Of a DNA stretch of 33,213 nucleotides, positions 3,568 to 30,104 are shown one piece after another; the first letter of the stretch is position 1; each line of letters begins with the position of its first letter. The stretch comes from an uncultured Cellvibrionales bacterium (lineage in GTDB: Bacteria; Pseudomonadota; Gammaproteobacteria; Pseudomonadales; UBA7239). The position numbers and the translations under genes were made by a program. The stretch spans positions 1 to 33,213 of the forward strand of contig CALMIC010000151.1 in assembly GCA_937864065.1 (NCBI GenBank). The letters run 5' to 3'. The notes below the pieces were generated by a model. It saw only the letters and a list, made by a program, of their open reading frames with translations. It made no database searches and was not told the DNA's origin.

Positions 3568-4746
3568 ATGAAATCATTTCACCCGCCAGTGCGTACTTTG
3601 ATGGGCCCAGGTCCTTCTGATGTAAGTCCTAGAGTTCTTGAGGCAATGGCAAGGCCAACAATTGGGCATCTTGATCCCTTGTTTGTCCAATTGATGGATG
3701 AAATCAAAACGCTGACACAGTATGTATTCCAGACCGAGAACAGGCTCACTTTGCCGATTTCTGCACCGGGTTCCGCTGGCATGGAAGCGGCTTTCGTAAA
3801 TCTCGTCCAGCCAGGGGACAAGGTCATTGTCTGCCAGAATGGCGTTTTTGGTGGCCGGATGAAGGAAAATGTCGAGCGCTGTGGCGGGAATGCTGTCATG
3901 GTGGAAGACCCTTGGGGCAGGGCGGTGGATCCACAAAAGGTTGAAGATGCACTGAAGGCAAATCCTGATGCCAAGATTGTGGCATTTGTCCATGCTGAAA
4001 CTTCTACCGGGGCTCTGTCGGATGCAAAAAACATTTGTGCAATTGCAAGAAAGTACAATTGCCTGACGATTGTTGATGCGGTGACTTCGTTGGCAGGAAG
4101 CGAATTGCTTGTCGATGAATGGGGTATTGACGCTATTTATTCAGGAACACAGAAGTGCCTGTCATGTACTCCTGGCTTGTCGCCGGTCAGTTTCAGTGAT
4201 CGGGCCGTTGAGGTTATTGCAAACCGCAACACGAAAGTGCAAAGCTGGTTCCTCGATATGAACCTGGTGATGGGCTACTGGGGCGGCGGAGTAAAAAGGG
4301 CATATCACCATACAGCCCCGATCAATGCACTCTATGCCTTGCATGAAGCGTTGGTGATGGTGAAGGAGGAACGGCTGGAAAATGCCTGGGCGCGCCATAC
4401 CTATCACCACAAGGCGTTGGCTGCAGGAATTGAGGCAATGGGGCTGCAGTTCGTAGTGCCTTCATCAGAGCGTCTGCCGCAACTGAATGCCGTGACAGTG
4501 CCTGAAGGTGTTGATGAAGCGGCCGTACGTAAATTGTTGCTGGATCAGTACAGCCTTGAGATCGGTGCTGGTCTGGGTGCCCTGGCAGGCAAGGTCTGGC
4601 GTATCGGTTTGATGGGATTTGCCTGCAACCAGAAGAATGTATTGTTCTGCCTCGGCGCTCTGGATTCAGTCCTGACAGCCATGAAGGCACCTATCCAGTC
4701 CGGAAAGGCCGTCAATGCAGCAATGGCGGTTTACGCACAGGGCTGA
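3568..4746 (+). CDS. Class V aminotransferase, alanine/serine-glyoxylate aminotransferase-like
   Basis: MGPGPSDVSPRVLEAMARPTIGHLDPLF...; PLP lysine region YSGTQKCLSCTPGLSPVSFS; HHTAPINALYALHEAL. Confidence 0.9.
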   Translation: MKSFHPPVRTLMGPGPSDVSPRVLEAMARPTIGHLDPLFVQLMDEIKTLTQYVFQTENRLTLPISAPGSAGMEAAFVNLVQPGDKVIVCQNGVFGGRMKENVERCGGNAVMVEDPWGRAVDPQKVEDALKANPDAKIVAFVHAETSTGALSDAKNICAIARKYNCLTIVDAVTSLAGSELLVDEWGIDAIYSGTQKCLSCTPGLSPVSFSDRAVEVIANRNTKVQSWFLDMNLVMGYWGGGVKRAYHHTAPINALYALHEALVMVKEERLENAWARHTYHHKALAAGIEAMGLQFVVPSSERLPQLNAVTVPEGVDEAAVRKLLLDQYSLEIGAGLGALAGKVWRIGLMGFACNQKNVLFCLGALDSVLTAMKAPIQSGKAVNAAMAVYAQG

Positions 4747-4764
4747 TTTCAATTCAAGCATTGT

Positions 4765-4792
4765 AAAAAAGGCACCTTTTGGTGCCTTTTTT
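4765..4792. terminator. Symmetric (probably bidirectional) intrinsic terminator between convergent genes
   Basis: AAAAAAGGCACC-TTTT-GGTGCCTTTTTT, a perfect inverted repeat between 3568-4746(+) and 4823-5296(-). Confidence 0.88.
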
Positions 4793-4822
4793 ATTTGGGT
4801 GATTTTTACTGGCGGCGTTATT

Positions 4823-5296
4823 TCATGCGTCAGAATAAGCATCAGCACTGCCTGGTGGTTTTGCCGGGACTTCTTCGCGCAGGCCATAGGCTTCATTGAG
4901 TGTGCCAAGGTTTCCCTTTTTGGGCGCGTAATCCAATGGAGGATTGATAACAGCCCCCTCTCCCAGAATAGGGGTGGCTTTGATGTCGCCCAGCATGACA
5001 GGTTGGATATCGATATGGCCGATTTGCTGAGCGCTGGAGGCGAGGTAATCGTGCAGGTCACGATAGTCGCGTGTCAATTTACTGACCAGTGCAGCTGTGT
5101 GGTTAAAGTGCTCGGTGACCTGAGCCTGCTGCCGCTGGAGCTTTTGCTCGGCTTCTTGCAGTCTTGACTCGAGAGTTTGCCTGCTCTGGGGTCTAGCAAA
5201 ACGCCAGGCCAGCAATGCGCCGAGCAGTATGCCTATGACGCCGCTGCTCAGGGCGACGAGAATGATGTTGGGGTAGTTCTCCACGGCATGCTCCAT
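4823..5296 (-). CDS. zapG: YhcB/DUF1043-family (ZapG-like) membrane-anchored coiled-coil protein
   Basis: N-terminal TM segment (IILVALSSGVIGILLGALLAWRF), then a coiled coil, then HFNHTAALVSKLTRDYRDLHDYLASSAQQI. Confidence 0.82.
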   Translation of the reverse strand: MEHAVENYPNIILVALSSGVIGILLGALLAWRFARPQSRQTLESRLQEAEQKLQRQQAQVTEHFNHTAALVSKLTRDYRDLHDYLASSAQQIGHIDIQPVMLGDIKATPILGEGAVINPPLDYAPKKGNLGTLNEAYGLREEVPAKPPGSADAYSDA

Positions 5297-5365
5297 TGGT
5301 GCTTGTTAGCATAGAGAGCATAATGCAATCCGATGCACTGGGCAAAAATCCGGCGGGGTAAGTCA

Positions 5366-6031
5366 ATGCAATCTTCCCGACTATTGCCGCCAGGCTGGAT
5401 GAATGGGGGCGAGGGCCGGTTTCTGCTTCCGGGACCAGTAGGCGAGATGGAGATCCTGGTAAATGGTGTGCAGGCTGTGCGCGGTGTTAGTCTGCTATGC
5501 CACCCGCACCCGCTCTATGGCGGCTCAATGGACAACAAAGTGGTCTTTACGCTGGCCAGGGCATTGCGGGACAGGGGCTATGTGGCTGTGCGCTTCAATT
5601 TCCGTGGTGTCGGTGCGAGTGTTGGTGAGCATGATGGTGGTGTCGGTGAAATGGACGACGCCTACTGGCTGTTGCAGCTCATGGGTACTGCTGCATCGGG
5701 TCTGCCAGTAATACTTGCCGGCTTTTCCTTTGGCGCAGCCATTGCGGCTCGTCTGGCCTGTCGACAAGAAACTGCTGCTGTCGTGCTGGTGGCGCCCCCT
5801 GTGCCGCAATACGGCTTGCATTCAATCAGGTCAATACCTGCCCCGGTACTACTGTTGCAAGCAGATGACGATGATGTGGTAGATACCAACGCTATGAATC
5901 AATGGTGGCAGGCATTGTCAGCGCCGGAAAAAGTATTGCGACGATGGGATCAAGGTGGCCATTTCTTTCACGGCCATTTGCCGGAACTGAAAACGGCCGT
6001 GAATGATTTCCTGTCATTGCTGGGTTGCTGA
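5366..6031 (+). CDS. Alpha/beta hydrolase
   Basis: LLCHPHPLYGGSMDNKVVFTLARALRDRGYVAVRFNFRGVGAS...ILAGFSFGAAIAARLA...GGHFFHGHLPELK; start codon uncertain. Confidence 0.85.
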   Translation: MQSSRLLPPGWMNGGEGRFLLPGPVGEMEILVNGVQAVRGVSLLCHPHPLYGGSMDNKVVFTLARALRDRGYVAVRFNFRGVGASVGEHDGGVGEMDDAYWLLQLMGTAASGLPVILAGFSFGAAIAARLACRQETAAVVLVAPPVPQYGLHSIRSIPAPVLLLQADDDDVVDTNAMNQWWQALSAPEKVLRRWDQGGHFFHGHLPELKTAVNDFLSLLGC

Positions 6032-8518
6032 CTCGCGCAGTATGCTCAGCGGTGGAATGACCACGGTGCGGTAGCAGAAGGCGATACCGACGGTGGTCAC
6101 TAGTGCAGTAGTTGCAGCCGGCACCAGAATCCAGATCTCCGGATGAAAAAAATATTCCATGCGGAACATGCGTGTCTGCAGGATCCAGGCGGTGAGTTCG
6201 GCGCCGCATGCTGCCAGCAGCCCGGCGATGAGACCGATACAGAAAAATTCAACAGCAAGTGCACCAAGGATGCGCTTCCTGCCTGCACCGAGGGTGCGCA
6301 GCAGGGCGCTCTCGTGCAGCCGTTGGTCGATGCTCGCCCTGAGGCATGCAAGCAGCACGAGCAGGCCTGCAGCCAGCACCAGCACAAGGATGACTTCGAC
6401 GGCGAGGCTGGCGCGTTGCACGATAGCCTGGATGCGCACTATCAGGTCGTCGACGGGATATGCTGTAACCGAAGGATAATGGCGCAACAGTTTACTCAGT
6501 GCCGCTTCTTGCTGTTCGGTGCGGTACACGCTGGTCATCCAGGTGGCATTGAAAGACTCCAGTACGCCCGGGCCGAACAGGAAGTAGAAGTTTGGCGTCA
6601 TCCTGTCCCAGTCCAGTGAGCGGATACTGGCGATTCTCGCAGGCAATCGCGCCGAGCCGATGGTGAATACCAACTGGTCACCGACATTCACCTTGAGGCG
6701 CTTTGCCAGCCCCTGTTCAACCGAGACTGGCGCGAGGCCGTCTTCCGACTCGCCAGGCCATGTGCCGGTCACAACCACATTCTCTGGCGGAAGCTCGCTG
6801 GCCCAGCTGAGGTTCAGTTCGCGGTATACCTCGCTGACCTTTTCGTCGAACAGCTCTGTGGCCGGCTGGCCGTTGATCTCCGATAGACGCCCGCGCACCA
6901 TCGGGTAAATGTCAGTGATCGAGAGCTGGATACTGGTAAGGTCGCGGCGCAATGGTTCGACATCCTGCGAAGCGATATTGATCAGGAAAACATTCGGTGC
7001 GCCCGGCGGAATCTGCATCCGCCATTCATCCAGCAGTGAGCCACGCAAGAGCACCATGACTGCCAGCAGCATGAAGCCGGTGCCAAAAACGACGACTTGC
7101 AGCAGGGATAACCAGCGACGGCGCAGCACATTGGCCATGCCGAGCCGCCAGATGCTGCCGGCACGGGTGCCGATGGCGCGCCCTGCCTGCAAAAGCAGGG
7201 CGCCCAGTGTTGCGGCAGGGAGCAGCAGGGCGAGCATGCCCGCCATGAGTGTCGCCACCAGTTTGGCGTCCTGGCTGTAAAGCCAGAGCACTGCCGCAAT
7301 GCCGGGTAGCGCGAGCCAGAGCGTGCGGCCGTAAACAAAACTGTCGACGGTGTCGCTGCGCAACACGCGCCACGGTGGCACACCCTGTAGACGCCAGAAC
7401 GCTGGCCAGACAAAACAGAGCAGGCAGATCAGGCCGGTTGCTGCACCCATCGCCAGCGGCATCGGGCCGGCGGCAGGCAGTGCTGCCGGGATCCAGTCGG
7501 CCATGACCGTGATGAAGGCAAACTGCAACAGGTAGCCTAGGGCTGCGCCGGTCGCAGTGGCAAGCAACCACAAGCCGGCCATCTGCCCGGCGAGAAGGCC
7601 CAGCACCTGCCCCCGGGTCGCGCCGAGGGTTTTCAGCACGGCGATCATGTCAGTATGCCGGGCGCAATAACGCTGCGCGGCGAAACCCGCTGCCAGCGCA
7701 GCTAGCAGCACGCCGAGACTGCCGGAGAGACGCAAGAACAGGGCAGCTTTATCCAGTGCCCCGGCGATACCGGGCTGGTTGTCCTCCAGGCTAATGACCT
7801 TGGCTTTCTTGCCGAGCTGGGGTGTCAGCCAGGCGAAATACTGGTCCAGTGACGCGCGTTCGCCAGTGAACAGGTAGCGATATTCGACGCGACTGCCGGG
7901 CATGACCAGACCGGTGGCTGGCAAATCGCCATCGTGGATCATTGTGCGGGCACCCATGCCGTAGAAACTGCTGCCAGCATCCCCTTCACGAGTCAGTACG
8001 CGTTCGACGATGAAGCTGGCCTGCCCGATGTCGATGCGGTCACCAAGCCGGATATCGAGCTGGGCGAGGATATTGGCATCGACCCAGGCGTTGCCGGGTG
8101 CCGGGCCATGGCGAACGGACGCGGAATGGTTGGCAGCATCGCGGGTTTCCAGCTCACCGCGTTGCGGGTAGCCATCGGAAACCGCTTTCAGCGCGGACAA
8201 GGTGCTGCGTTCGCCGCTGCTGTCAGTGGTCGGGTAGACCATCGTCGGGAACAGGGCTGTGCGGGCAAAACCCAGGCCATGGCGGCTGGCTTCAGCGAGA
8301 TAGTCTGGGGCGAGGGGTTCGCTCAGCTGCAGCACGCGGTCAGCACCCAGGTAACTGCTCGCTTCGCCGACCAGCGCTTTCTGCAGGCGCTCGGCAAACA
8401 GGCTGATACCGGTAACCATGGCGACACCCAGCACCAGCGCGGCAAACAAAAGGCCAAGCTCTCCGCCCCGCCATTCCCTGCCCAGCATCCGCCAGGCCAT
8501 CGGCATGCGCAGCGTCAC
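6014..8518 (-). CDS. FtsX-like ABC transporter permease, YbbP type; proposed GTG start at 8518
   Basis: Long multi-TM protein with paired FtsX-like segments (LKTLGATRGQVLGLLAGQMAGLWLLA; LLRTLGAGRKRILGALAVEFFCIGLIAGL). The GTG overlaps the stop of the upstream ATPase gene (GTGA). Confidence 0.88.
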   Translation of the reverse strand: MTLRMPMAWRMLGREWRGGELGLLFAALVLGVAMVTGISLFAERLQKALVGEASSYLGADRVLQLSEPLAPDYLAEASRHGLGFARTALFPTMVYPTTDSSGERSTLSALKAVSDGYPQRGELETRDAANHSASVRHGPAPGNAWVDANILAQLDIRLGDRIDIGQASFIVERVLTREGDAGSSFYGMGARTMIHDGDLPATGLVMPGSRVEYRYLFTGERASLDQYFAWLTPQLGKKAKVISLEDNQPGIAGALDKAALFLRLSGSLGVLLAALAAGFAAQRYCARHTDMIAVLKTLGATRGQVLGLLAGQMAGLWLLATATGAALGYLLQFAFITVMADWIPAALPAAGPMPLAMGAATGLICLLCFVWPAFWRLQGVPPWRVLRSDTVDSFVYGRTLWLALPGIAAVLWLYSQDAKLVATLMAGMLALLLPAATLGALLLQAGRAIGTRAGSIWRLGMANVLRRRWLSLLQVVVFGTGFMLLAVMVLLRGSLLDEWRMQIPPGAPNVFLINIASQDVEPLRRDLTSIQLSITDIYPMVRGRLSEINGQPATELFDEKVSEVYRELNLSWASELPPENVVVTGTWPGESEDGLAPVSVEQGLAKRLKVNVGDQLVFTIGSARLPARIASIRSLDWDRMTPNFYFLFGPGVLESFNATWMTSVYRTEQQEAALSKLLRHYPSVTAYPVDDLIVRIQAIVQRASLAVEVILVLVLAAGLLVLLACLRASIDQRLHESALLRTLGAGRKRILGALAVEFFCIGLIAGLLAACGAELTAWILQTRMFRMEYFFHPEIWILVPAATTALVTTVGIAFCYRTVVIPPLSILRESATQQ

Positions 8519-20957: not shown

Positions 20958-21650
20958 TCAGAGATCCTGTACCAGCGATTCGTTGAAGTCGTTGTCCGGT
21001 TTGTTATCTGCCGGTGCGCCGAATTCCAGGTTCCATTCTTTCAGTACCTCGGCCAGCGCCACCGCCTGGTCGTGCAGGGCAAGCAACTCTTCCCGGGAGC
21101 CTTTGGGGCCCATGTACATCTTGATGGCACGGCCCTTGGCCACCAGTGGGTGGTTCGGGTGCTGCATCTTGTAGACTTCCAGCTTCCAGCGCACCCCGTG
21201 CACCATGCTGCGGTAGAAGATCAGCTTGGTGTTGAGACTGATGCCGCCGATTTCTTCCAGTTTGCCGAATACCGAGAAATCGGTGCCGAACAGTGATATT
21301 TCCTTGCTAGCCGGGTCGGCCACGACCGTCGCGTTGCGTTTGCCTTCTGCCAGGATGGCCAAGTCGCCAAACAGTTCGCCCGGTGTGATGTAGTTCACCG
21401 GATGGGTGTTCTCATTGACTTCATCGGCGTAGACAGCCAGCTTGCCTTTCAGCACGAAGTACATCCAGGTATCGACATCGCCTTTTTTCATCACCACACC
21501 GCCCGGATCGAGGTCGACGATGCGGGAGTGGCGCAACAGGATGTCGTACTGCCACGGCTCCGACTTGGAGACATCGCGGTAGAACGGGATGCTGGCCAGC
21601 AGTTTGTCTATCTTGTCGCGCGGCAGGCCGCTGATGGGTTTGATTTGCAT
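20958..21650 (-). CDS. Cyclic-nucleotide-binding-domain protein without an evident HTH domain
   Basis: IPFYRDVSKSEPWQYDILLRHSRIVDLDPGGVVMKKGDVDTWMYFVLKGKLAVYAD...YITPGELFGDLAILAEGKRNATVVA. Confidence 0.85.
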   Translation of the reverse strand: MQIKPISGLPRDKIDKLLASIPFYRDVSKSEPWQYDILLRHSRIVDLDPGGVVMKKGDVDTWMYFVLKGKLAVYADEVNENTHPVNYITPGELFGDLAILAEGKRNATVVADPASKEISLFGTDFSVFGKLEEIGGISLNTKLIFYRSMVHGVRWKLEVYKMQHPNHPLVAKGRAIKMYMGPKGSREELLALHDQAVALAEVLKEWNLEFGAPADNKPDNDFNESLVQDL

Positions 21651-21772
21651 GGCTGATCGTGACCGGTACCACAAAACTGTTGCCGGTGCTGTCGCAACCG
21701 GATGATGCTGCAGTTTACACCACCGCTGCCACCAAGGAATGCCATTGCGCCAATTTGCCGATACGGCTCGCC

Positions 21773-26042: not shown

Positions 26043-26056
26043 TGAGATTTATTATC
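26038..26056. promoter_or_regulatory. Candidate Fur-box-like site upstream of the PBP-like/porin cluster
   Basis: AATAATGAGATTTATTATC matches 15/19 positions of the E. coli Fur consensus GATAATGATAATCATTATC by hand count; an AT-rich patch in GC-rich surroundings. Confidence 0.4.
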
Positions 26057-26194
26057 AATAATGGCGGAATGTGAAAAAAATGTCATATAACCCATGGGAA
26101 TTCCGTCACATTTTGATAGGCTGAAGGCCGTCGAGAGGACAGGATTCAACACTGTCCGGTAGGCCGGCATAAAAAAACCAGAGAGATTGTCATC

Positions 26195-26647
26195 ATGTAC
26201 AACAAGAAGCCCTCCGTAGGCACAGTGCTCTCCCGAAGCCTCGCATTGACCATAGCCTCCCTGGCTTTTGCCTCAGCGGCACAGGCCGAGATTGCTGTAA
26301 TCGTTAACAAGAGTGTCGCAGCGTCCCAGGTTTCAACAGAGGTTGTGTCGGATATTTTTCTCGGCAAGGTCAATACGTTGCCAGATGGAACCAGACTGAC
26401 GCCTGTTGACCAGGAAGCAAACCAGTCAGCAAGAACCGAGTTCTATGCCAAGGTTGTGAAAAAGGATGATGCGCAACTGAATGCCTACTGGTCGAGACTG
26501 ATTTTTACGGGCAAGGGTGAGCCGCCGAAAAAACTGGCAGACAATGCTGAAGTGATTGCACTCGTAAAAAGCAATGCGGGAACAGTAGGGTATGTTGATG
26601 CTTCAGCAGTAAACGATTCTGTGAAAGTGTTGCTGCGAGTTCCCTGA
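26195..26647 (+). CDS. Small periplasmic PBP-like protein (PstS-like type 2 periplasmic-binding fold), copy 1
   Basis: Signal peptide ending AQA; VVSDIFLGKVNTLPDGTRLTPVDQ...ARTEFYAKVVKKDDAQLNAYWSRLIFTGKGEPPKK. Confidence 0.82.
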   Translation: MYNKKPSVGTVLSRSLALTIASLAFASAAQAEIAVIVNKSVAASQVSTEVVSDIFLGKVNTLPDGTRLTPVDQEANQSARTEFYAKVVKKDDAQLNAYWSRLIFTGKGEPPKKLADNAEVIALVKSNAGTVGYVDASAVNDSVKVLLRVP

Positions 26648-26707
26648 TTGCCAATAGACATACCAGATAATCATTCGGACAAACAACTAGAAAAGAGAGA
26701 CATCACT

Positions 26708-28093
26708 ATGAGCCAGAAAAAACAGTTGGCACTGATAATCTCGGCTTTGGCGGCCATGCCGTCAGCCCAGGCCATGACTGATGCGGAAATGGAGGCTCGC
26801 TTCAAGAAGTATGAGGAAAAAATTGAAGCCCTGCAGGCTGAAGTCAAAGAACTGAAGGCCAATGGCGGTGTGGTCTATGTTGAGGATATCGACAAGCAAA
26901 CGCGTCACAACGCCAAGCAGATCGCCGATATCCAGCACAAGATGGATGCTGAAGCTGAAAAACTCAAGATCAATGGCTTCATGACGGCTGCTGTTTCCGA
27001 TGGCGATGACCCGATCGAGGCGGCACATGACATCATGGATAACCCGAATTTCCGGGGAGATGCCAAGGCTGGCCTGCAGTTCAACTACAAGCTGGGCGAG
27101 AATTCACAGGCCGTGTTGCAGCTGGTAGCGCGCAGCCACGGTAATGAGTCCTGGGAAACCAACGCCGAGTGGGCCTATATCGATTACGGCATGAGTGAAA
27201 ACCTGCATGCCCGGATGGGTCGCCTGCGTATCCCGATGTACCTGTTCTCCGAGTCAATCGACGTCGGTTACACCTATCCGTGGACGCGTCCGCCTTTGGA
27301 GGTTTACCAGACTATCCTTACCTCCTACGAGGGGGCTGACCTGTTGTACAGCTTCAATACTGGCAGCGTAAACCACACCTTGCAGCCGTTTGTCGGCTCC
27401 AGCCTGAACAACGAGAATATCGACCAGCAGTACGACACATTCCCTGTGTTTGAAGGGGTTCCAGGTGCATACCCGCCGGTACGCGCCAGGCTCAAGATGG
27501 ACCTGAAAGACTTGTATGGCATATCGTTGAATTCGACTTGGGGCAACTGGACCACGAAGGTCACCGCGATGCACCTGGGCATAGATGGCAGCCTGGTTCT
27601 GCTTGATGGCTTGCCGTTGCCGCCGCCGCTGCCAGCTGTAGCTGCGGGTGAGGTGATTACCGAGGTCAGTGACAACCTGCAGTACTATGCGATTGGCGGC
27701 ATGTATGACAACGGTTCCTTGCTGGCCATGGCAGAAGTCGCGAACTTGCGCTCTTCCGATTACACCTTCATGGGCGATGGTGTTTCCGGTCACCTGACCG
27801 GCGGTTACCGTCTCGGTCGCTGGATGCCGTATGCCACTTATGCCTGGGCCCAGTCCTACAACGATTTCAATGATTTGTACCAGATGATGGGGGCAGTGCC
27901 GAACCGCAACATGAAGTCTGTGACGCTCGGTGTGCGCCGTGAGTTAACTAACCAGCTGTCTGCCAAGCTGGAGTGGGTCAACTATTTCGACCTGGAAAAC
28001 AATGGCAACCTGGAAAGCGGTGCTACCTCGTTTGCCGGTGCGCTGGGTGATGATGCCAATGTCTATACACTGTCACTGGATGCGGTGTTCTGA
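26708..28093 (+). CDS. Outer-membrane beta-barrel/porin-like protein with N-terminal coiled coil, copy 1
   Basis: Signal peptide; coiled coil EARFKKYEEKIEALQAEVKELK; amphipathic strands; ends in Phe (LSLDAVF), typical of outer-membrane proteins. Confidence 0.78.
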   Translation: MSQKKQLALIISALAAMPSAQAMTDAEMEARFKKYEEKIEALQAEVKELKANGGVVYVEDIDKQTRHNAKQIADIQHKMDAEAEKLKINGFMTAAVSDGDDPIEAAHDIMDNPNFRGDAKAGLQFNYKLGENSQAVLQLVARSHGNESWETNAEWAYIDYGMSENLHARMGRLRIPMYLFSESIDVGYTYPWTRPPLEVYQTILTSYEGADLLYSFNTGSVNHTLQPFVGSSLNNENIDQQYDTFPVFEGVPGAYPPVRARLKMDLKDLYGISLNSTWGNWTTKVTAMHLGIDGSLVLLDGLPLPPPLPAVAAGEVITEVSDNLQYYAIGGMYDNGSLLAMAEVANLRSSDYTFMGDGVSGHLTGGYRLGRWMPYATYAWAQSYNDFNDLYQMMGAVPNRNMKSVTLGVRRELTNQLSAKLEWVNYFDLENNGNLESGATSFAGALGDDANVYTLSLDAVF

Positions 28094-28109
28094 GAAAAGG
28101 ATAAATGAG

Positions 28110-28541
28110 ATGAAGCGCAGCATGACAAGAACTGCGACAGGAGTGATGCTTTCTCTGTTATTCACTGCCGCCGCACAGGCCGAGATTGCTATTGTGGTGA
28201 ACAACAGCGTAGGTCTGTCACAAATCAATGCGGATGTGGCGTCTGACATTTTCCTGGGCAAGCTGGATGCCTTGCCGGATGGCACCAGGATGGTGCCGAT
28301 TGACCAGGAAGATGGCCAGGCTGCCCGCACGGAGTTTTATACCAAGGTCGTGAAGAAAGACGCGGCGCAGCTGAATGCCTACTGGTCCCGGCTGATCTTT
28401 ACCGGCAAGGGTGAGCCGCCGAAAAAGGTAGCGGACAACGCCGAGGTCATTGCCTTGGTCAAGAGCAACCCGAATATTATCGGTTATGTTGATGGCTCTG
28501 CAGTCAACAGCTCCGTCAAAGTGCTGTTGCGTTTGCCTTGA
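28110..28541 (+). CDS. Small periplasmic PBP-like protein, copy 2 (paralogue of 26195-26647)
   Basis: VASDIFLGKLDALPDGTRMVPIDQEDGQAARTEFYTKVVKKDAAQLNAYWSRLIFTGKGEPPKK; aligns ungapped with copy 1. Confidence 0.85.
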   Translation: MKRSMTRTATGVMLSLLFTAAAQAEIAIVVNNSVGLSQINADVASDIFLGKLDALPDGTRMVPIDQEDGQAARTEFYTKVVKKDAAQLNAYWSRLIFTGKGEPPKKVADNAEVIALVKSNPNIIGYVDGSAVNSSVKVLLRLP

Positions 28542-28569
28542 GCCAGCCGGATGGTGTGATCTGGGTCAC

Positions 28570-28596
28570 AAAGGGGGCATAAACAGCCCCTTTTTG
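28570..28596 (+). terminator. Intrinsic terminator-like hairpin after PBP-like copy 2
   Basis: AAAGGGGGC-ATAAACA-GCCCCTTTTTG. Confidence 0.75.
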
Positions 28597-28666
28597 TTAG
28601 GAAGGTTTGACAGGTTTTTTACGCGTCGTTAATTTCGGCATTGCAAGGGAACCAGGAGGTATGTGC

Positions 28667-29875
28667 ATGTCTGTCATGACTGGCAAAAAAATGTATATGG
28701 CGCGGGCAATAGCTGCTGCCGTATTGTCGCAGGCAGGTGTGGCATCCGCTATGGATACAGGTTCACCGATTAGCGTTGATGGATTCGGTACCCTCGCCGC
28801 AGTGCATAATGACAATCACTCAGTGTCTTTCTACGACGCCGACGACCGGACTGACTGGAACACGGATTCCATGCTTGGCCTGCAGGTAAAGCTGCCCCTG
28901 CTGGATCGCCTGAGCCTGACCGGGCAAGTGGTGGCGCGCGGCTACGAGAATTACGACCTGCAGGTGGAATGGATGTTTCTTACCTATGAAGCAGCCGATG
29001 ACCTCTACCTGCGCGGCGGCCGCTTGCGCATCCCTTTCTTCATGTTTTCCGACTCGCTGGAAGTCGGCTACAGCTATCCCTGGATCCGTCTGCCGGTTGA
29101 TGTCTATGGCCAGCTGGGCTTCACCACGTTTGAAGGAGCGGATGCGGTCTACTCCATGCCGATAGGCAACATGAAGCTGGAGCTGCAGCCGTTTGCCGGC
29201 TCAACGAAGCCTGATTACATCCGCTCTGGCCAGAATGGCCGCCTGGAAGTGAGCAACCTGTGGGGTCTGCATGCTGTACTGGGCAATGACTGGCTGGAAC
29301 TGCACGCCAGCCATACCGAGGGTGATTTTGACCTGCGTGGCATTGATAGCATCAGCGGTTATCTCGGCGGGCTGGAGATGGCCGGGTTTCCTGCCGTGGC
29401 AGACCAGTTCGGCACCAACAACCGCCACGGGACGTTTGATGGCCTCGGATTTGATGCCAATCTGGATAATTTCCGACTGATCGGTGAATACACGCGGAGG
29501 GGCACCGATGGCCTGATTGCCAACACGACCGGCTGGTACACGACGCTCGCCTACACCTACAAGGCGTTCACGCCGCACATCACCTTTTCCGAGCTGAAAA
29601 CCACAGAAGATTTCAGCGGTGAAATACTGGCCGCGACGGCCATGCCGCCGATGCTGGCGATGGGCACCATGCAGTTTGCCCATATGAACAAGGTCAACGA
29701 GTCTTCGGTAACCGTGGGCTTGCGTTGGGATGTGGCCAACAATACAGCGCTGAAAATGGAATGGCAGCGGATCAACCCCGACAATGACTCGTCACCCCTC
29801 TTTGCTGTTCGGGATTTCACTTATGCCGGCGATCCGGTCAATGTCTACAGCGTTGCGGTAGATTTCGTCTTCTGA
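28667..29875 (+). CDS. Outer-membrane beta-barrel/porin-like protein, copy 2 (lacks coiled coil)
   Basis: AGGAGG 7 nt before ATG 28667; signal peptide; shares GRLRIPxxxFSxSxxVGYxYPWxRxP and EGADxxYS with copy 1; ends VDFVF. Confidence 0.78.
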   Translation: MSVMTGKKMYMARAIAAAVLSQAGVASAMDTGSPISVDGFGTLAAVHNDNHSVSFYDADDRTDWNTDSMLGLQVKLPLLDRLSLTGQVVARGYENYDLQVEWMFLTYEAADDLYLRGGRLRIPFFMFSDSLEVGYSYPWIRLPVDVYGQLGFTTFEGADAVYSMPIGNMKLELQPFAGSTKPDYIRSGQNGRLEVSNLWGLHAVLGNDWLELHASHTEGDFDLRGIDSISGYLGGLEMAGFPAVADQFGTNNRHGTFDGLGFDANLDNFRLIGEYTRRGTDGLIANTTGWYTTLAYTYKAFTPHITFSELKTTEDFSGEILAATAMPPMLAMGTMQFAHMNKVNESSVTVGLRWDVANNTALKMEWQRINPDNDSSPLFAVRDFTYAGDPVNVYSVAVDFVF

Positions 29876-29897: not shown

Positions 29898-30104
29898 TCA
29901 GGCCGGATTGGCTTGATGCTGTTGTTGCATCATGATTCGCTGGGGCAGGAACGCAAACAATGCGCTCATCGCTTCCTGACAAGCCGAGCGCACCATGTTC
30001 TCGGTAATCGGCTGTTCGTTGCCATCAGCATCAACCAATGCGCCATAATGAAAATCGGTGGCCCAGGGATTGGCTTCCGGAAACTGGCCTGTTGTCGTAT
30101 TCAT
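29898..30104 (-). CDS. Small uncharacterised protein (68 aa)
   Basis: MNTTTGQFPEANPWATDFHYGALVDADGNEQPITENMVRSACQEAMSALFAFLPQ; same strand as alaA and 30188-30631. Confidence 0.55.
   Translation of the reverse strand: MNTTTGQFPEANPWATDFHYGALVDADGNEQPITENMVRSACQEAMSALFAFLPQRIMMQQQHQANPA

Follow-up and report, generated by a model that had tools for sequence, protein, structure and literature searches.

The window analysed here, which is the whole 33,213-nt stretch of contig CALMIC010000151.1 from an uncultured Cellvibrionales bacterium, carries at positions 26195-29875 a four-gene locus in which genes for small proteins related to periplasmic binding proteins (PBPs) alternate with genes for predicted outer-membrane barrels. 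The order is PBP1, barrel1, PBP2, barrel2, all on the + strand, with four intact frames that are preceded by lipB-lipA and separated by gaps of 60 nt (PBP1-barrel1), 16 nt (barrel1-PBP2) and 119 nt (PBP2-barrel2). Comparison with other genomes indicates that a barrel and a single-lobed PBP form a conserved, co-diversifying pair associated with one receptor domain, and this pair may constitute the outer part of a trans-envelope sensor. Model confidence is given below as pLDDT (predicted local distance difference test), and G003 denotes a genome of the same genus.

26043..26194, + strand: intergenic leader, 3' of lipA; its final bases, together with the start codons (AGAGAGA..CATGTA.AACAAGAA), match those of G003 barrel1
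26195..26647, + strand: PBP1, 150 amino acids, secreted, single-lobed and PstS-like, an extra copy 5' of barrel1
26708..28093, + strand: barrel1, 461 amino acids, predicted 16-stranded porin with an N-terminal periplasmic coiled coil (model, pLDDT 83.5; Foldseek)
26780..26956, + strand: barrel1 residues 25-83, predicted helices or coiled coil 5' of the first strand, without counterpart in barrel2 (model; alignment)
27230..27322, + strand: barrel1 residues 175-205, the loop from strand 5 to strand 6, at the position of porin constriction loop L3 (strand table; alignment)
28110..28541, + strand: PBP2, 143 amino acids, single-lobed and PstS-like, the conserved downstream partner of barrel1 (model, pLDDT 89.7)
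28568..28597, + strand: hairpin AAAGGGGGC...GCCCCTTTTT followed by TGTTAGG, lying between PBP2 and barrel2 and perhaps a terminator (fold -13.9 kcal/mol)
28661..29875, + strand: barrel2, 404 amino acids, porin-like barrel and divergent paralogue, lacking the downstream PBP that accompanies it in G003

History of the four genes

The two PBPs resemble each other far more closely than the two barrels do. PBP1 and PBP2 each begin with a signal peptide ending AxAE and align without gaps at 98/139 identical residues (71%), with exactly 91/120 from AEIA to the C-terminus, whereas barrel1 and barrel2 share 29% identity over 419 columns (E 1e-36), including the common block GRLRIP...YPW.R.P..VY...EGAD..YS...LQPF.GS. 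Both PBP copies are under purifying selection, because their nonsynonymous divergence (dN) is 0.16 against a saturated synonymous divergence (dS) of about 2.4. An earlier inspection of the letters and open frames, referred to here as the sequence-only reading, had already described the order of the four genes, their shared strand and short gaps, about 91 of 120 identical PBP residues, a diagnostic block in otherwise more divergent barrels, and the lack of an ATP-binding cassette (ABC) permease or sensor kinase nearby. These descriptions agree with the present counts, and no ABC transporter or sensor gene adjoins the four genes in the window.

The same reading had explained the locus as a tandem duplication of a two-gene module, and here relatives point to a different history. 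In G003, lipA is followed by barrel1 (66% identical to window barrel1) and then a PBP, while on a second contig the end of a PBP precedes barrel2 (67% identical to window barrel2), a PBP and the downstream gene that the window also has. Because G003 and the same-family genome G002 both show barrel then PBP, barrel1 and PBP2, separated by 16 nt, are the old pair. Window PBP1 and G003 barrel1 have the leader AGAGAGA and the start MYNKK in common, so PBP1 occupies the position that barrel1 holds in G003; behind window barrel2, a PBP or PBP remnant was looked for and none was found. Judging from these alignments, one PBP has been gained and one lost at the window locus relative to G003. A single duplication of the whole pair was rejected, given PBPs at 71% against barrels at 29% and the absence of PBP1 from that place in G003. 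The PBPs are alike within the genome and the barrels far apart, with which the short available stretch of G003 agrees, and two porins of different selectivity may share one periplasmic surface. The hairpin at 28568..28597 is missing from the list of the consensus terminator scan, and consensus promoter and terminator scans of the locus yielded only background level.

A predicted porin and half of a binding protein

The model of barrel1 contains 16 strands, with helices 25-83 in front and a loop of about 30 residues between strands 5 and 6; most of the diagnostic block occupies the last part of strand 5 and this loop, where porins have their constriction loop. The C-terminal Phe (F461 in barrel1) is invariant across 57 members of the barrel family, and Foldseek matches the model to V. 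cholerae OmpT, Vibrio chitoporin (VhChiP) and PorB at E<=1e-11. By strand number, long strand 5-6 loop, C-terminal Phe and fold match, barrel1 as modelled is a 16-stranded Gram-negative porin. The barrels resemble such porins (Porin_4; OmpT, chitoporin, PorB) in these predicted strands, in the conserved strand 5-6 loop region and in the terminal Phe, and differ from them in that the window barrels lie below the Pfam cut-off, barrel1 has an N-terminal coiled coil and the family is usually linked to a half-PBP. Porin_4 is matched by 18/57 family members, and window barrel2 reaches only E 0.035. FapF, a barrel with a coiled coil, was considered and dropped, the model having 16 strands and porins being the best fold matches. 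The predicted coiled coil of barrel1 is like that of ScrY.

The small partners belong to a family of about 130-150 amino acids, of which 85 members were aligned. The AlphaFold2 model of PBP2 (pLDDT 89.7) aligns with PstS structures across some 120 columns, with a template modelling (TM) score of 0.63 on the query and about 0.36 on the target, and by sequence the PBP profile aligns with residues 76-184 of 4exl only, which is lobe II. The two-lobed type II periplasmic binding fold is therefore not present in the window PBPs, which at 143 and 150 amino acids comprise lobe II only. The PstS motif S-R-x-D-G-S-G-T has become D-Q-x-E-G-x-x-x-R, the position of E. coli R135 is Gln in 80%, Leu in 19% and Val in 1% of the members and Arg in 0/85, and lobe I with the remaining phosphate ligands is missing. 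Family members still give weak profile matches, to PF12849 in 43/85 (E<=0.01) and to TIGR02136 in 65/85 (E<=0.001). The window PBPs score 26.8 and 17.1 bits against TIGR02136, far below the cut-off of 206.6, and a Pfam scan of them returned no PBP-family match. The profile searches that the sequence-only reading had suggested, against PBP_like_2 and porin families, detected relationships in the wider families, weak ones for the PBPs, and left the window proteins below the cut-offs.

The short PBPs thus share with PstS and PBP_like_2 (PF12849, TIGR02136) the lobe II fold, a signal peptide and weak profile matches, and differ in having about 120 mature residues without lobe I, without phosphate ligands and without an ABC transporter partner. 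The phosphate name is misleading for them, because the lobe I half of the site is gone and the lobe II arginine is Gln or Leu; many short proteins scored as "phosphate ABC transporter substrate-binding" may carry the wrong name, having one lobe, no phosphate site and a tie to a porin. A classical clamshell carrier role is unlikely, because only one lobe is present and the PstS phosphate ligands are gone. It is very improbable that these PBPs work for the phosphate transporter Pst or for any other ABC transporter encoded elsewhere, as the PstS fold and the sub-threshold TIGR02136 match might suggest, since lobe I and the phosphate arginine are missing and no permease family is prominent among the neighbours at about 80 loci. 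In addition, contig C205 of the same genome carries what reads as a complete pstS-C-A-B-phoU cluster with a PstS of 359 amino acids, the permease, ATPase and PhoU names resting on a reading of the frames. The short PBPs are superfluous for Pst because this cluster has its own PstS, and their assignment as Pst subunits was rejected.

Conservation of the pair and its signalling neighbours

When 84,980 species were scanned with one genome each, 180 relatives of the short PBP were recovered, and the best 80 of them come mostly from Oceanospirillales- and Alteromonas-type Gammaproteobacteria, with some from Burkholderiales; at 59 of these loci the PBP has a barrel homologue nearby. Within 57 genomes of the window's own order (the order sample), the PBP occurs in 25 and the barrel in 21, with the PBP present in 21/21 barrel genomes, and for 70/82 barrels a PBP lies on the same strand at a distance of <=400 bp. 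Barrel precedes PBP in 55 cases and PBP precedes barrel in 19, which reverses the phase assumed by the sequence-only reading; at the window locus, PBP2 belongs to barrel1. Paralogous pairs within one genome also diverge in step, with a Mantel r of 0.91 (p 6e-4, 11 pairs) in gamma proteobacterium HdN1 (G030) and 0.71 (p 2e-4, 11 pairs) in G023. Barrel and PBP copies number 12-13 in HdN1, where pairs also form a tandem triplet near 2.14 Mb, and 16 in G023. That the barrel-PBP pair is conserved is near certain; the sequence-only reading would have abandoned its dedicated module if the pairing were absent elsewhere, and the pair is kept across Gammaproteobacteria, reaches Burkholderiales and is present in many marine bacteria. 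No published description of a porin/half-PBP pair was found in the open-licence literature.

Variable gene order, together with the gain of one PBP and the loss of another at the window locus, would be expected of chance neighbours brought together by hitch-hiking or operon drift without functional coupling. This explanation is extremely improbable, being already contradicted by the pairing of 70/82 barrels across many families and the co-divergence of paralogous pairs, and the partnership is kept in both gene orders. The half-PBP could instead be an accessory of the porin, acting as an assembly factor, a periplasmic plug or a gate, with only an indirect link to receptors; tight linkage and co-divergence with the barrel fit such a role, for which the modelled coiled coil of barrel1 offers a candidate periplasmic docking site. 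However, 17/85 short PBPs have no adjoining barrel and four genomes have the PBP without the barrel, and several short PBPs adjoin PAS-GGDEF proteins, so that an accessory role is rather improbable.

The commonest families flanking the pair are signalling proteins (GGDEF, PAS, methyl-accepting chemotaxis proteins (MCPs) and cyclases), and no ABC transporter family appears among the 25 commonest neighbour families at about 80 loci. MCPs of one sensory-domain family stand beside the pair in >20 loci from many genera and recur in separate parts of the barrel tree. Their periplasmic domain (A5), from which a receptor profile was built, is predicted to be a four-helix domain weakly similar to TarH, the commonest weak match (6/17 members, E down to 3e-4). 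A search of the order sample with this profile found the domain in 18/57 genomes, 17/18 of which carry the barrel (Fisher p = 7e-10), and 12/27 domain copies lie <=2.2 kb from a barrel. In a class sample of 184 genomes, the domain occurs in 21, with the barrel in 18/21 (p 6e-13); outside the own order, 16/19 domain genomes carry the barrel (p 1e-11) and 13/21 domain copies adjoin it. Six adjacent receptors in the order sample belong to the hybrid histidine kinases, which the profile seed did not contain, and are transcribed divergently from the pair. An MCP of a betaproteobacterium, encoded next to a short PBP and likewise outside the seed, matches the receptor domain at 5e-42.

Other arrangements were observed among the scanned loci. 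Barrel-less short PBPs stand directly behind GGDEF proteins, of which the two scanned are PAS-GGDEF, in L044, L055, L058, L063, L067, L069 and L070 (about 4200-6450), so that the half-PBP may also work with other signalling enzymes. Thalassolituus-type loci (L043, L052, L053, L061, L062, L091, L112) have a membrane protein 5' of barrel-PBP on the same strand, and the two such proteins scanned match a class III nucleotide cyclase domain. In L098-L118 (Alteromonas, Thalassotalea), PBP-barrel-MCP lies behind a periplasmic adaptor and a resistance-nodulation-division (RND) pump pair, a linkage that synteny alone within the genus may explain.

In the window's own genome, a whole-genome profile search found one copy of the receptor domain, at contig C67:1010-4540 (L128:1010-4540), in a hybrid histidine kinase of 1177 amino acids with HAMP, GAF, HisKA and HATPase domains and three receiver domains (3xREC). 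Its gene stands behind that of a small receiver-like protein, and related kinases in other genomes (L130, L131) adjoin CheR/CheB-like genes. None of the genome's five MCPs (0/5) has the receptor domain by comparison and profile search. In relatives, receptor genes can stand together with the outer-membrane and periplasmic genes (12/27 and 13/21 receptor copies adjoin a barrel), and in the window's genome the receptor is unlinked. Elsewhere in the window, a 68-amino-acid open frame (MNTTTGQFPEANPWATDFHYGALV...) lies 3' of barrel2 on the opposite strand (29898-30104, -), and a protein of 238 amino acids (20958-21674, -) has a cyclic-nucleotide-binding domain (PF00027, E 7e-14) as its sole Pfam match.

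A possible trans-envelope sensor and its known analogues

Sequence comparison establishes the pairing, the co-diversification, the half-fold, the loss of phosphate ligands, and the co-occurrence and adjacency with one family of four-helix receptor domains, borne by MCPs and hybrid kinases. From these results, the porin and the half-PBP can be read as the outer-membrane and periplasmic front end of four-helix receptors, a trans-envelope sensor whose probability is put at somewhat under an even chance. A solute would enter through or occupy the porin, whose loop-3 region would determine selectivity; the half-PBP would bind either to the porin, from the periplasm, or to the four-helix domain of the receptor, shuttling between both; porin loading or solute arrival would alter the amount of half-PBP reaching the receptor; and the receptor would then signal to flagella if it is an MCP, or to a phosphorelay if it is a hybrid kinase. 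In the window genome, two different porins and two closely similar half-PBPs would probably feed one receptor, the hybrid kinase at C67:1010-4540.

Several points weigh against this sensor. The seed of the receptor profile was drawn from MCPs adjacent to the pair, and the co-occurrence statistics treat genomes as independent although species share ancestry. At the cut-off used, 16/34 class-level barrel genomes lack the receptor domain, and the receptor is therefore not obligatory. Many short PBPs stand by domain-less PAS-GGDEF proteins or cyclases, some of them without a barrel. The window itself has no receptor, and the proposed partner lies on another contig, with a sensory domain that shares 37% identity with the one in the G002 kinase and about 20-24% with MCP domains.

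Alternatively, the pair could be dedicated to uptake without signalling, the porin admitting a solute that the small protein binds or carries to an unlinked inner-membrane transporter. Conservation and co-diversification of the pair are compatible with uptake, as are the conserved strand 5-6 loop region, the descent of the small protein from a solute-binding protein fold, and the up to 16 paralogous pairs per genome, which resemble a substrate-specific porin set. This explanation is nevertheless unlikely: a single lobe forms no clamshell, the phosphate ligands are gone, signalling genes dominate neighbours that include no transporter family among the commonest, and the association with one receptor domain is strong. 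The proposal of the sequence-only reading, an outer-membrane uptake or sensing unit with a periplasmic ligand carrier, is thus supported in part: its sensing half gains support from the receptor-domain link, and its carrier, in the usual sense of the word, is unsupported, the protein having one lobe and no PstS phosphate ligands.

If the link between the pair and four-helix receptors is true, bacteria with the pair read the traffic through outer-membrane pores directly, genomes with a dozen pairs possess many solute-specific inputs to chemotaxis or phosphorelays, and a porin that reports its traffic across the envelope becomes directly testable. It is suggested more tentatively that the pair represents a new modular trans-envelope sensing system, in which a selective porin and a half-PBP messenger that does not clamp ligand would be joined to one four-helix receptor domain with exchangeable output (chemotaxis or hybrid kinase), some genomes having expanded it to a dozen or more porin channels in parallel.

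Known systems resemble this arrangement in part. In binding-protein-assisted chemoreception of E. coli, MBP (maltose-binding protein) acts with Tar and RBP (ribose-binding protein) with Trg, together with the LamB porin, and the two-lobed binding protein is shared with an ABC transporter. The arrangement proposed here has in common with MBP-Tar and RBP-Trg a porin, a periplasmic partner derived from a binding protein and a four-helix chemoreceptor, and differs from them in having a half-protein encoded beside the porin gene, no linked transporter and a possible hybrid-kinase output. OmpS of Alcanivorax dieselolei has been put forward as a solute detector that switches on the expression of chemotaxis genes (PMC6304351); it would likewise be an outer-membrane detector tied to chemotaxis in marine Gammaproteobacteria, but it is a TonB-dependent receptor, and no half-PBP is described there. 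In YfiBNR of Pseudomonas aeruginosa, a small periplasmic protein represses an inner-membrane signalling enzyme unless an outer-membrane protein sequesters it (PMC4655355, PMC2837407). The likeness lies in an outer-membrane protein and a small periplasmic protein that controls a signalling enzyme; YfiB, however, is a lipoprotein with an OmpA-like domain and not a porin, and the output is a diguanylate cyclase. By analogy, MBP-Tar chemoreception and YfiBNR are the nearest working parallels to the porin/half-PBP pair, which is a member of neither.

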